From NCBI RefSeq assembly GCF_028368935.1, contig NZ_JAQNDK010000004.1, forward strand, positions 1,612,001-1,676,000: a stretch of DNA of 64,000 bases. Reading direction: 5' to 3'. Source of the DNA: Sorangium aterium (GTDB taxonomy: Bacteria; Myxococcota_A; Polyangia; Polyangiales; Polyangiaceae). Below, piece after piece: positions 51,216 to 58,247 of the stretch; position 1 is the first letter of the stretch, and each line of letters starts with the position of its first letter. The translations under genes and the position numbers were made by a program. The notes below the pieces were generated by a model. It did no database searches and was not told the origin of the DNA. It saw nothing but the letters and a program-made list of their open reading frames with translations.

Positions 51216-52337
51216 TCATGAGGCCTCGGCGGGGCGCTGCGCTGCCGACTCGGGGGCTTGGTGCGCGATGGCCCAGACGAACTCCGGGAGCAGCGCGAGG
51301 GAGTGCGGGTCCTGCGTGACGCCGATGAGGCCGCTGATGAACTCCATGGGGTGCTCGCGCCTGCCCCCGTCGATGAAGCGCAGCTGGGCGCTGGTCAGGC
51401 CGGGCGGCACCTCGGAGAGCCCTGGTCCCTGCGGGTTCCCGAGGCCCCCGAGCGCGTCGCTCCGGGCCTCCGCCGTCCGCCATCGCTCGTGCCATGTCTC
51501 GATATAGGGGTTCGGGGCGAAGTAGTCGTTGGGCCAGGCGCGCAGGTAGGGAAACAGCACGTGGATCCACCCGGTCAGCTCGTCGGCCGAGCTCTCGTAC
51601 CTGAAGAACGCGCGCCAGAACATCGTGTCGGCGCGCCCCTCCGCCGAGGCGGCGATCTGGTCGAGCACGGGCAGGAGCGCGCGGGTCCAGCGATCTTGCC
51701 CGACGGAGCCGAGCATCGCCACGCGCTGGCGCACCCAGCGCCAGTCGTCGGACGTGCCGAGCAGGTACACGCGCGGGATCCCGCGCTGCGGGAACTCCAT
51801 GTCGCCCGGGAACGGCGGCTCCCACGCGTGGTGCGGCGCGAGCGGGGTGGCGACCGTGAGCTCCGACGACACCCGCTCGACAGGCCCCGTGGTGGAGAAA
51901 TTGGATGTCACGAGGTCCCGCAGCGAGCCGACACGGGACGAAATCTGCCTGGAAAAGTCCGGAAACAAAGCCGGCCACGGGTTCACCTCGCCGAGGGTGA
52001 AGTCCGGGCGATCGACGACGAGCGCGAACTCGCGATCGTCGGGGAGGAAGCGGCGTCGATGCTCGTCGTTCGCGGCGAGGTGGAAGGTGAAGCCGCGCGC
52101 CAGGCAGAGCCAGACCACGTCGGGCGAGAGCACGAGGGGATAGCGCTGGGTGAAGGCGGTATAGGCGGCCTGGACGAGCGGGTGGAGGTCCGTGCGTCCC
52201 ACGAGGGGCAGGCGGTGGCGGTAGGAGGCCTCGATCTGGGAGACGAGCAGGCTCTGCACCGCAGCTTCGCTATCGAATCCCGGCAACGGCGCCGTTGCGG
52301 GCTCGACGTCGGCAACGGCGATCGTCGTGACGTTCAT
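51216..52337 (-). CDS. DUF4419 protein
   Basis: 373 residues from the ATG at 52337 (GAGGACGAGG upstream). It follows the DUF4419 pattern: LHPLVQAAYTAFTQRYPLVL, SPDVVWLCLARGFTFHL, then DFSRQISSRVG and ELTGWIHVLFPYL. Members are widespread, mostly in bacteria and fungi, without known function; no catalytic motif stands out. It is on the same strand and 281 bp upstream of the T6SS-like operon, separated by a long palindrome that may insulate it, so a link to secretion is uncertain. Confidence 0.85.
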   Translation of the reverse strand: MNVTTIAVADVEPATAPLPGFDSEAAVQSLLVSQIEASYRHRLPLVGRTDLHPLVQAAYTAFTQRYPLVLSPDVVWLCLARGFTFHLAANDEHRRRFLPDDREFALVVDRPDFTLGEVNPWPALFPDFSRQISSRVGSLRDLVTSNFSTTGPVERVSSELTVATPLAPHHAWEPPFPGDMEFPQRGIPRVYLLGTSDDWRWVRQRVAMLGSVGQDRWTRALLPVLDQIAASAEGRADTMFWRAFFRYESSADELTGWIHVLFPYLRAWPNDYFAPNPYIETWHERWRTAEARSDALGGLGNPQGPGLSEVPPGLTSAQLRFIDGGRREHPMEFISGLIGVTQDPHSLALLPEFVWAIAHQAPESAAQRPAEAS

Positions 52338-53124
52338 GAAACCTCGTCCTCCCCGGGCTGCGCGGCGCGCTCGTGATCCCTCGCTGTCCTTCGTACACGA
52401 GCGTGCGGCGCGCGACAACGGGCCGCGTGCAGGCGCCCATCGCGGCTGCGCGACGTGGAGAGGAGCGCGCCCGGGCGCGGCGCGCTCCTGCTGTCCGGCG
52501 TGAGCGCTTGGGCCTGGCAAGGTGCTTGTTCCGAGGCATCGATTGTCGATCGTCGTGATCGGTCGTGCTCCGGGTCCGCTGGGGAGCGTGTGCGGTCGTT
52601 GTTCCGCAGCGGCGAGAAGAGCTCTGGACCTTTCTCGGATCCTTCCCACGGCGCGCGCAGCCAGGTCGACGGCGCTGTCGCCCGGCGCCGGCGTTGCAGC
52701 CGAGCGGGTTGTCGTCGGAAGTGAGAGGTTTTTCTGGATCCGCGCTTCTCTTCGCCGGAAGCGAGAGGTTTTTCTCTGGATCTTGGCTTGATTTGGTCGT
52801 AATCGAGAGATTTTTCTCTGGATCCGCGCTGTTGTTTGCCGGATGTGAGAGCTTTTTCTCTGGATTTGGGCCGATTTTAGCCGGATGTGAAAGATTTTTC
52901 TCTGGACCCGGGCCGATTTTAGTTAGAAGCGAGCACGATGTCAGCGCGCCGTTCACGCCGCGCCGGCCCCTCCATGTGCGCGCGATGCCGCTGGAACGTG
53001 ATTTTTTGCGGGCAGCAGATGGCCGACGGCTGCGCCGTGCCGGTGTTGCATGTCCATGGTGAATGGTGCACGACTAGGCGCTCGTGCAGCCGCGGCGAAA
53101 TGCCCTGAAGGAGGAGCGCAGCAG
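52338..53124. other. 787-bp divergent intergenic region with repeat array
   Basis: The region lies between the DUF4419 and Bax-inhibitor genes. Its right half carries the 42-bp tandem array (52721-52928). The minus-strand frame through it would read as 14-residue PEKNLS-containing repeats, but no convincing start or conserved protein is seen. Confidence 0.55.
52721..52928. repeat. 42-bp tandem array with hairpin core, five units
   Basis: Units begin at 52721, 52761, 52803, 52845 and 52887. The first is 40 bp, the rest are exactly 42. Each holds a conserved core like GAGAGRTTTTTCTCTGGA (AGAGA/TCTCT pairing across T's; the first unit has a 2-bp deletion there) followed by a more variable 24-bp part. 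On the minus strand the units read as 14-residue PEKNLS-type repeats. A sixth unit decays after 52929. The T-rich core stands out in this GC-rich region. Confidence 0.85.
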
Positions 53125-56012: not shown

Positions 56013-56651
56013 GTGCCTGCCGAGTGTCCCTCCGTGTCGCAGAAGCCGAAGAACCCGTACAAGCGGCCTGACGCCTTCACGAAGGCGGCGAAGGCGCAGG
56101 GCTATCCTGCGCGCAGCGTCTTCAAGCTCGAGGAGATCGATCGCCGGGTGCGGCTGCTCCGCCCTGGCCAGCGGGTGCTCGACCTGGGCGCAGCGCCCGG
56201 CTCGTGGTCGATGTACGCGGCGCAGCGGATCGGCGCGGGGGGCAAGCTGCTCGCGGTCGATCTGTCGCCTATCACGGCGGCGTTCGGCCCGCAGGCGACG
56301 GTGGTGCAGGGGGACGCGCTGTCGCTGACGAACGAGGCGCTCGCGCAGTTCGCGCCGTACGACGTGGTGCTGTCGGACATGGCGCCTGCGACGAGCGGGA
56401 GCAAGATCGCCGATCAGGCCCGGAGCTACGAGCTGTTCATGCGCGCCGTGGCCGTGGCCGAGGCGCTGCTCGCGCCGGGTGGGGCGTTCGTCGGGAAGAT
56501 CTTCATGAGCGAGGACTTCGTGAAGGCCCGGGACGCGCTGAGGAACCTCTGCGAGGAGGTCCGGAGCATCCGGCCCGAGGGGACGCGGGCGAACAGCGTG
56601 GAGATCTTCCTGGTGGGGCTGAAGCGGAAGGCGGCGGGGAAGACGGGGTAG
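56013..56651 (+). CDS. rlmE: 23S rRNA 2'-O-methyltransferase (RlmE/FtsJ)
   Basis: About 212 residues. It methylates the 2'-OH of U2552 in the A-loop of 23S rRNA in E. coli. The K-D-K-E catalytic tetrad is seen in SVFKLEEID, VLSDMAPATSG, FVGKIF and NSVEIFLVG, and the SAM motif reads VLDLGAAPGSWS. Two GTGs are possible starts (56013 and 56034); the second gives the N-terminus SQKPKNPYKRPDAF. It lies 48 bp after rplC on the same strand and is likely cotranscribed with it. A large inverted repeat follows 30 bp after the stop. Confidence 0.93.
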   Translation: MPAECPSVSQKPKNPYKRPDAFTKAAKAQGYPARSVFKLEEIDRRVRLLRPGQRVLDLGAAPGSWSMYAAQRIGAGGKLLAVDLSPITAAFGPQATVVQGDALSLTNEALAQFAPYDVVLSDMAPATSGSKIADQARSYELFMRAVAVAEALLAPGGAFVGKIFMSEDFVKARDALRNLCEEVRSIRPEGTRANSVEIFLVGLKRKAAGKTG

Positions 56652-56680
56652 GGGAGCGGAGAGGTCTTGGCGCACTGCCC

Positions 56681-56844
56681 GGCCCCCGGAGAGGGTGTTC
56701 GTGGGGCGGCGCGGGGGCCCCACCGAACTCGCCCAATTGACGTTCTATCTCCGGCGTGCACAGCACGCCGGAGATAGAACGTCAATTGGGCTCAAACAAC
56801 GGTCCGTCCCCCGCGCCGCCCCACGAACACCCTCTCCGGGGGCC
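56681..56844. repeat. Nested perfect inverted repeat (possible MITE-like element)
   Basis: The outer arms (56681-56717 and 56808-56844) are perfect 37-bp complements. Inside, a second perfect pair of 29-bp arms (56731-56759 and 56763-56791) flanks the 3-nt loop ACA. The segments between outer and inner arms (13 and 16 nt) do not pair. The size and perfection go beyond a normal terminator, though it can terminate both converging genes. No target-site duplication could be settled. Confidence 0.85.
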
Positions 56845-56945
56845 TACCGCTGTCGTGGATCATACCCACTGGGACAACGGTCCGTCCCCCGCGCCGCCCC
56901 ACGAACACCCTCTCCGGGGGCCTACCGCTGTCGTGGATCATACCC
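56796..56945. repeat. 78-bp-period direct repeat, two copies and a remnant
   Basis: A 72-nt unit begins ACAACGGTCCGT at 56796 and at 56874, ends with ATCATACCC, and is identical in both copies by eye. A third, degenerate start lies near 56952 (ACAGCGATCC). The right outer arm of the inverted repeat is part of the unit, so the element seems to have grown by tandem duplication of one arm. Confidence 0.85.
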
Positions 56946-57062
56946 GCTCGGACAGCGATCCATCCCCGCGTTGGTGTCAATCTCGAGATGCGATGGTCCC
57001 TTTCGGGGGCATCTATCACGGTGATTCGGGACCGAGGCAGCGCAGAATCCGGGCGGTTGCCA

Positions 57063-58247
57063 TCAGAACGCGTTGTGCCCCGTGATCGCGTTGCCGAGGA
57101 TCAGGCAATGCACCTCGTCGGTGCCCTCGTACGTGTACACGCTCTCCAGGTTGAGCATGTGACGGATGACGGGGTAATCGAGCAGGATGCCGTTCGCGCC
57201 GAGCACGCTCCGCGCGGTCCGGGCGATCTTGAGCGCCCAGCCGACGTTGTTCCGCTTGCACAGCGAGACCTGCACCGGGCTGATGCCGGTCGTGTCCTTC
57301 AGCCGGCCGAAGTGAAGCGCCATGAGCTGCCCCTTCGCGATCTCCGTCGCCATCTCGACGAGCTCGGACTGGATGAGCTGCCGCGACGCGATCGGCTGGC
57401 CGAACTGGGTGCGCTCGCGCGCATAGGAGACCGCCGTCTCGTAGCAGGCACGCGCGGCGCCCAGCGCGCCCCATGCGATCCCGAAGCGCGCCTGGGTCAG
57501 GCAGCCGAGCGGGCCCTTCAGGCCGACCACGCCAGGGAGCACGTTCTCCTCCGGTACGCGCACCTCGTTCAGGACGATCTCGCCTGTCGGGCTCGCGCGC
57601 AGGCTCATCTTGCCGTGGATGAGCGGGGTCTCCAGGCCCTTCATCCCGCGCTCCACCACGAAGCCGCGGATGGACTCGGCCCCTCCGTCGTCGACCTTGG
57701 CCCACACCACGCAGAGGTCCGCGATGGGCGCGCTCGTGATCCACATCTTCGTGCCCGTCAGCACGTACGAGCTCCCGTCCTTCCGGGCGCGGGTCTTCAT
57801 CGAGCTCGGATCCGACCCGCTGTCGGGCTCCGTCAGGCCGAAGCAGCCGATCAGCTCGGCGGCGGCCATCTTCGGCAGCCAGCGCTGCTTCTGCGCCTCG
57901 GAGCCGTACTTCCAGATCGGATACATCGCCAGCGAGCCCTGGACGCTCACGAAGCTGCGCAGGCCGCTGTCGCCATACTCGAGCTCCTGCAGCGCGAGGC
58001 CGTAGGCGACCGAGTTCATGCCGGCGCAGCCGTAGCCGGTCAGCGAGCCCCCGAGCAGGCCGAGCGCGGCGATCTGGGGGATCAGGTCGGTCGCGAACTC
58101 CTCGCGCGCGAACAGGTCCGCGGCGCGCGGGAGGTACCGCTCGCGCACGAAGCGACGGACGGCATCGCGGATCATGCGCTCTTCCTCGGAGAGCAGCGGA
58201 TCGATCGCCATGAGCTGATCGAGCGAGAGGGGCTCCTGGGTGGCCAT
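57063..58247 (-). CDS. gcdH: Acyl-CoA dehydrogenase, glutaryl-CoA dehydrogenase-like
   Basis: 394 residues from the ATG at 58247. It has the full FAD-dependent acyl-CoA dehydrogenase fold: CFGLTEPDSGSDPSSMKT, KMWITSAPIADLCVVWA, RTQFGQPIASRQLIQSELVE and YEGTDEVHCLILGNAITG. The Glu in YEGT aligns with the catalytic base of the glutaryl-CoA group, which oxidises and decarboxylates glutaryl-CoA to crotonyl-CoA in lysine and tryptophan breakdown. The open frame extends far upstream, but this part is discarded. Its 3' end meets the repeat element; an L,D-transpeptidase gene lies upstream on the same strand. Confidence 0.9.
   Translation of the reverse strand: MATQEPLSLDQLMAIDPLLSEEERMIRDAVRRFVRERYLPRAADLFAREEFATDLIPQIAALGLLGGSLTGYGCAGMNSVAYGLALQELEYGDSGLRSFVSVQGSLAMYPIWKYGSEAQKQRWLPKMAAAELIGCFGLTEPDSGSDPSSMKTRARKDGSSYVLTGTKMWITSAPIADLCVVWAKVDDGGAESIRGFVVERGMKGLETPLIHGKMSLRASPTGEIVLNEVRVPEENVLPGVVGLKGPLGCLTQARFGIAWGALGAARACYETAVSYARERTQFGQPIASRQLIQSELVEMATEIAKGQLMALHFGRLKDTTGISPVQVSLCKRNNVGWALKIARTARSVLGANGILLDYPVIRHMLNLESVYTYEGTDEVHCLILGNAITGHNAF

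Follow-up and report, generated by a model that had tools for sequence, protein, structure and literature searches.

The DNA analysed here (the window) is a stretch of 64,000 nucleotides from the genome of Sorangium aterium, and the palindromic element that we describe lies in it between two convergent genes. On the forward strand an FtsJ-like methyltransferase gene (56034..56651; Pfam PF01728 FtsJ, E 5e-44), whose start at 56034 is the call of a codon-usage script, lies upstream of the element. On the reverse strand a convergent gene for an acyl-CoA dehydrogenase (57063..58247; Pfam PF00441, PF02770, PF02771) lies downstream of it. We take the methyltransferase to be of the RlmE type. The element is located 3' of the stop codon of this gene (stop at 56651), and this place directly behind a stop codon agrees with a role at the ends of transcripts. 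On the left side the element, for which all coordinates refer to the forward strand, probably starts at 56660 with a weakly conserved 5' flank (56660..56680, from the information content of 68 copies) that ends in the foot GCCC; the sequence common to two relatives (G004 and G005) ends at 56659. Elsewhere in the window, at 52270-52956 of the reverse strand, the list of open reading frames contains a frame that opens with repeated DPEKNLSxPAK-type units.

The hairpin begins with a left outer arm of 37 bp (56681..56717), which is the perfect reverse complement of the equally long right outer arm (56808..56844). Enclosed between the two are the left internal-loop segment CCCCACCGAACTC (56718..56730), a left inner arm of 29 bp (56731..56759), the terminal loop ACA (56760..56762), a right inner arm of 29 bp (56763..56791) with which the left inner arm pairs perfectly, and the right internal-loop segment TCAAACAACGGTCCGT (56792..56807). 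By sequence comparison the window copy is a nested hairpin of 164 bp in total, and its predicted fold of -160 kcal/mol contains no G-U pairs. The foot CTACCG (56844..56849; GTAG on the other strand) forms the right end of the element, as judged from conservation in 68 copies. A tandem duplication extends from within the right half: unit 1 (56796..56873) comprises the end of the right internal loop, the right arm and the 3' flank, unit 2 (56874..56951) carries the right outer arm once more at 56886-56922, and of a third unit just a decayed start was read by eye at about 56952..56974. With a spacing of 78 bp, 72 nt of the first two units are identical (56796-56867 and 56874-56945); over the full 78 nt the identity is 97%. 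The first-pass annotation had given the 37-bp and 29-bp arms, the 3-nt loop and the 164-bp nested hairpin exactly, and its two identical 72-nt direct units at a 78-bp period, which repeat the right outer arm, were confirmed. Slippage at the hairpin is the ordinary explanation and would account for this 78-bp repeat.

The intergenic stretch of the window matched its own genome of 13.5 Mb at about 20 different places, with full copies as well as single arms, such that the arm structure is multi-copy. Twenty places were fetched, and 15 of these together with the window copy made up alignment A1, which excluded solo arms and weak hits as well as one copy that contained masked bases. Each of the 16 copies folded into one long hairpin, and a covariance model built on them matched all six Sorangium genomes. 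Overall at least 90 distinct copies were fetched, namely at least 21 from the window genome (G000), at least 23 from G003, 21 from G004 and 16 from G001, as well as at least 7 from G005 and 2 from G002, both of which are fragmented assemblies. The first-pass annotation had held its reading open to refutation by a single-copy element absent from all relatives; what we found are family copies in six Sorangium genomes. A BLAST search with the window copy likewise gave matches in all six Sorangium genomes; among the best 20 candidates per genome there was no match in 33 genomes from other genera, of which 19 belong to the same family and 14 to the same order. An exact 21-base internal motif was present in 19 stretches of genome_contigs, all from Sorangium cellulosum, and was not found in viral contigs. 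The gathering score of Rfam was not reached by any match, five weak microRNA-type matches all remaining below it. In the open-licence literature on Sorangium and myxobacterial repeats, to which our search extended, no description of the palindrome family was found, nor is it described in the excerpted part of the So0157-2 genome paper (PMC3696898). The family is real, has no description in the literature searched and is best filed among the bacterial interspersed palindromes.

The window structure is far beyond chance, yet long palindromes are not rare in Sorangium. A sample of 800 kb from two other strains contained 15 further loci with 25-bp arms in which at least 24 positions pair. In G003 another family of nested palindromes was seen at 27 or more places (L262:9650-9800, L262:15420-15620, L258:10380-10560 and others); its core is conserved and its outer stems are variable and well paired, and each of the five other Sorangium genomes gave only 1-4 matches to it, all short and weak. 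G004 contains hairpins of repeated AACGCAAAGGCGCAAAG units (L227:12634, L230:4926 and L179) and a palindrome of at least about 220 bp (L240:4084-4304), which is nearly perfect over the whole stretch shown.

Units of the family measure about 150-170 nt and form a hairpin in which the internal loops are conserved and the foot carries a CTAC tag. The conserved foot consists of GCCC followed by the stem start GGCCC on the left, and of the stem end GGGCC followed by TACSG on the right, where CTAC corresponds to GTAG on the other strand. Directly after the stem, conservation in 68 copies amounts to 0.93 for T, 0.82 for A and 0.87 for C, and the 5' flank of about 20 nt is weakly conserved in the same copies according to its information content. 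At the 5' foot the consensus reads GCCC and lacks GTAG; where a GTAG occurs there, in copy L134, it is the stop codon of the host gene. Conserved motifs of the internal loops are AACTC in the left one and TCARACA in the right one. Among the 90 copies the exact motifs were present in 70 (GAACTC-type, left) and 82 (CTCRRACA), with both in 68. A minority of copies (L109, L110, L127, L144, L153 and others) has the same loops and a different, longer G-rich foot and thus forms a subfamily. The stem sequence differs from copy to copy, and in each the pairing is nearly perfect. The earlier suggestion that perfection implies recent formation did not hold up, as copies that differ considerably in sequence are no less perfect.

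The stems vary in sequence and remain paired, and in the outer stem the two arms change together. In the 16-copy alignment 97.9% of 920 cells were paired and 42 of 58 pairs carried changes on both sides, values that were not reached by any of 500 shuffles for either measure; partners slid against each other paired at 38-47%. For the ungapped 28-bp outer stem, 2412 of 2464 pairs were Watson-Crick pairs in 88 of the 90 copies (two were dropped due to poor pairing), and the outer stem was perfect in 69 of 90. Comparing all pairs among the 63 of 88 copies that could be set in register, with 23 base pairs each, provided 14268 two-sided versus 773 one-sided differences. Between strains, 12 of the 22 listed same-locus pairs entered the count and gave 71 two-sided and no one-sided differences in the outer stem; two sets of three among these pairs share copies and are hence not independent, and copy L101 has just its left flank in common with its two partners. 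The flanks of the same-locus pairs were about 80-95% identical. The clearest case of descent is L107/L140, at equal distance from the same gene, with three two-sided and no one-sided differences in the outer stem, and five and two, respectively, over the whole hairpin. Counting the whole hairpin by predicted pairs, one-sided differences made up 29-42% of the changed pairs; we gave more weight to the outer stem, since the predicted pairs beside the loops vary between copies. Within the two youngest pairs of copies the number of paired changes was zero. A few length changes were mirrored in both arms (e.g. L085/L131). The two-sided changes were not significantly clustered (423 of 2000 shuffles reached the observed value), such that copied tracts of several bases are a possibility at most.

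The type of the remaining mismatches bears on the level at which pairing is kept. If selection acted on one RNA strand, G-U should be better tolerated than A-C, and parity of the two would indicate a process on DNA or on both strands. Among the 2464 outer-stem pairs we counted 13 G·T, 12 A·C and 27 other mismatches, and in the 30 copies from same-direction tandem contexts the numbers were 5, 5 and 15. A first, rougher count over both stems (83 copies, 4901 positions) with 31 G·U, 87 A·C and 208 others had no such parity and was set aside because its loop boundaries were rough and reached into the internal loops. Copying from arm to arm, in addition, predicts that changes are two-sided and lack intermediates. 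The parity together with the two-sided differences points to correction of the arms at the DNA level rather than to selection on one RNA strand, and the arms are likely maintained by copying of DNA. For the unpaired loops, which are conserved, selection is required in addition.

The copies have a distinct position with respect to genes, which we called with a simple script based on the codon usage of the window. A left-hand gene was called for 88 copies, of which 76 lie downstream of that gene in sense orientation, at a median distance of 38 nt from stop codon to foot, and 68 of these 76 are within 100 nt. Between tandem genes 31 copies are oriented along transcription and 6 against it (two-sided binomial 4e-5). 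Convergent contexts account for 43 of 86 copies compared with 62 of 367 sampled intergenic gaps, and in 40 of the 43 the stop codon of the sense gene is the nearer one. No bias relative to the replication fork was observed, 10 of 21 copies in G004 and 13 of 23 in G003 being oriented with the fork when base 1 was assumed as the origin and the halfway point of the genome as the terminus; GC-skew samples from two genomes were noisy. In 10 of 88 copies an arm is present a second time (at least 26 of 32 bases) within 160 nt of the hairpin. In the window genome the repeated arm is on the right in 4 of 21 copies and on the left in one.

Comparison of loci between strains is indicative of mobility. 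At the window locus four relatives (G001, G003, G004, G005) showed no element next to either of the two genes, and in G001 and G004 other DNA, seen at its ends only, lies between them. The element is also missing at the L098 locus in the three relatives found, at the L099 locus in G001, G003 and G004 (G005 retains a remnant), at the L134 locus in G003 and G005, and at the L133 locus in G000, G001 and G003. What looks like a degraded left arm remains at the L134 locus in the window genome, and G005 has a collapsed small hairpin with a CTAC tag at the L133 locus. Two pairs of copies are young: L133/L134 have hairpins that are 98.8% identical, with identity ending at the foot plus TACGGT, and L070/L086 have hairpins that are 98.7% identical, with flanks that differ past the foot. 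The L134 hairpin directly abuts the native stop codon TAG. Further loci are common to several strains, such that some copies look old. For some same-locus copies the distance from the stop codon differs, which may reflect repeated independent insertion behind the same gene instead of descent. Long hairpins of other kinds occupy such sites as well, with unrelated ones at the L098 locus in G004 (L179) and G005 (L183) and a different nested hairpin right behind the same stop codon at the L134 locus in G001 (L206), as if unrelated long hairpins landed at the same gene 3' ends.

A target duplication gave no signal. The direct-repeat score between the flanks of 68 copies was reached in 49 of 200 shuffles, a test with approximate element edges that short duplications could escape. 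A weak inverted-repeat signal between the flanks (reached in 1 of 200 shuffles) was led by L123, a copy with a repeated arm. The PF01797 (Y1_Tnp) profile had no match in any of the six Sorangium genomes and was positive in 5 of 14 control genomes. In a region of solo arms (L203) the arms were degraded, and no autonomous parent was recognised from the sequence and the list of open reading frames.

Our preferred reading, to which we assign a probability of about 0.6, is that the family consists of Sorangium-specific, short, non-coding and non-autonomous mobile palindromes of a REP/YPAL-like kind, with arms that template switching homogenises and slippage duplicates. A hairpin would be transferred, perhaps as a single strand, and inserted at gene ends without target duplication. 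During replication through the hairpin, template switching between the arms would copy a new mutation from one arm onto the other, and slippage could duplicate one arm as in the window copy. If transcribed, the upstream mRNA would gain a very stable 3' hairpin; a role of the family at transcript ends is plausible but unproven. We infer the transfer, since neither a mobilising enzyme of the Y1 family nor a target duplication signal was found. Two of the three suggestions of the first-pass annotation are thereby partly borne out. Its non-autonomous mobile element agrees with the multiple copies, with relatives in which the element was not seen at the same locus and with the identity of young copies that ends near the foot, but the matching transposase did not turn up, the Y1_Tnp family being without a match in all six Sorangium genomes. 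Its palindrome made by replication is in agreement with the concerted arms and the tandem arm duplications, and replication-type events appear to shape the element.

The most probable alternative is a functional RNA, i.e. a transcript-end hairpin (a bidirectional terminator or an mRNA-stabilising 3' end) whose pairing is under selection and whose copies are placed by an unrelated process. It would account for the sense orientation in tandem contexts (31 versus 6), for the excess of convergent contexts over the sampled gaps, for the nearer stop codon of the sense gene in 40 of 43 of them and for the different long hairpins behind the same gene elsewhere (L098 in G004 and G005, L134 in G001). 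Opposed to it is the equality of G·T and A·C among outer-stem mismatches, which extends to same-direction contexts, although a function on both strands would predict the same. In its classical form, the strong bidirectional terminator proposed earlier has no backing from a consensus scan of 56400-57300, which found no U-tract terminator on either strand. With, in addition, just about 20 copies per genome and many loci that are not common between strains, we consider a functional RNA as the primary explanation to be unlikely, if worth keeping in mind.

The readings that invoke a known transposition machinery fare worse. Mobilisation of a REP/REPIN by a RAYT (Y1 tyrosine transposase) would agree with GTAG at the foot, the gene-end position, the hairpin and the missing target duplication signal, and the collapsed copy at the L133 locus in G005 resembles a GTAG REP. 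The element has, however, a single GTAG instead of two inverted ones, its stems far exceed the 5-13 bp reported for REPs in the excerpted account (PMC3733652), and PF01797 has no match in the six Sorangium genomes compared with matches in 5 of 14 controls, which renders this origin improbable. A classical MITE, moved by cut-and-paste of a DDE transposase acting on terminal inverted repeats, would explain inverted ends and dispersed copies; given that 68 copies lack a target duplication signal and that most of the stem varies between copies, it appears more improbable still. Chance or an assembly artefact, in favour of which nothing was found, has a practically negligible probability in view of 90 copies in six genomes and a covariation beyond 500 of 500 shuffles. 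For the window hairpin this reading is refuted by the existence of the family, and an artefact of the assembly is very unlikely because related copies occur elsewhere in six genomes, three of which are single-contig.

A more speculative version of the mobile reading, which we regard as doubtful, holds that the palindromes are self-templating: the element would be defined by its shape (foot tag and loops), a non-Y1 enzyme would transfer the hairpin starting at its foot, and the arms would be rewritten together. Template switching during replication would then rewrite both arms, such that the sequence could drift without constraint and the hairpin would nevertheless remain perfect. Other families of nested palindromes in Sorangium would be independent inventions of a similar kind and rivals for the same gene ends.

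How long stems maintain perfect pairing while their sequence changes is an open question, and for template switching as the means of upkeep its proponents rate their own strongest evidence as circumstantial, according to the excerpted part of their report (PMC8794818). The family presented here offers dozens of natural records in which both long arms can be followed, from several strains and from loci that are common to them as well as loci that are not. Its discriminating signature is the combination of changes in both arms with equal numbers of G·T and A·C mismatches in the outer stem. Nature has in this way documented how long palindromes maintain their perfection. It also means that REP-like palindromes occur in a genus without a detectable Y1/RAYT gene.

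Several known systems share features with the Sorangium palindromes. Integron attC sites have variable stems and conserved unpaired positions and are located just 3' of genes; their core (GTT...AAC) was not seen by eye at the foot of the Sorangium palindrome. Mitochondrial double-hairpin elements may provide another parallel. Among the closest by description is YPAL/RU-2 of Yersinia, an intergenic element of about 168 bp with internal inverted repeats, which in the excerpted description is thought to have been recently mobile on the evidence of filled and empty sites and for which that excerpt names no transposase (PMC2229807). The likeness covers size, internal inverted repeats, intergenic place and filled versus empty sites. 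In contrast, target duplications of 3-26 bp are reported for YPAL, whereas the Sorangium family, with its approximate edges, gave no such signal, and its concerted arms are a feature that is not mentioned for YPAL in the excerpt (PMC2229807). GTAG REPs, as excerpted, are mostly located downstream of genes and have stems of 5-13 bp (PMC3733652); they share the GTAG at the hairpin foot and the gene-end position with the Sorangium family, which differs by its 37-bp outer stem and inner hairpin. REPINs, whose hairpins are described as often carrying compensatory changes in the part of the report considered here and for which deep sequencing reads were searched for excised hairpins (PMC3116915), are doublets tied to RAYTs, while the Sorangium family has one GTAG and no Y1 transposase match. 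Template switching in replication yields perfect stems and paired changes, according to the excerpted account (PMC8794818), and the both-arm change without intermediates known from such hairpins was encountered in the Sorangium outer stem (71 to 0). In that account template-switch hairpins are described for RNA genes, whereas the Sorangium palindromes represent a dispersed, probably mobile DNA family with stems that are several times longer.
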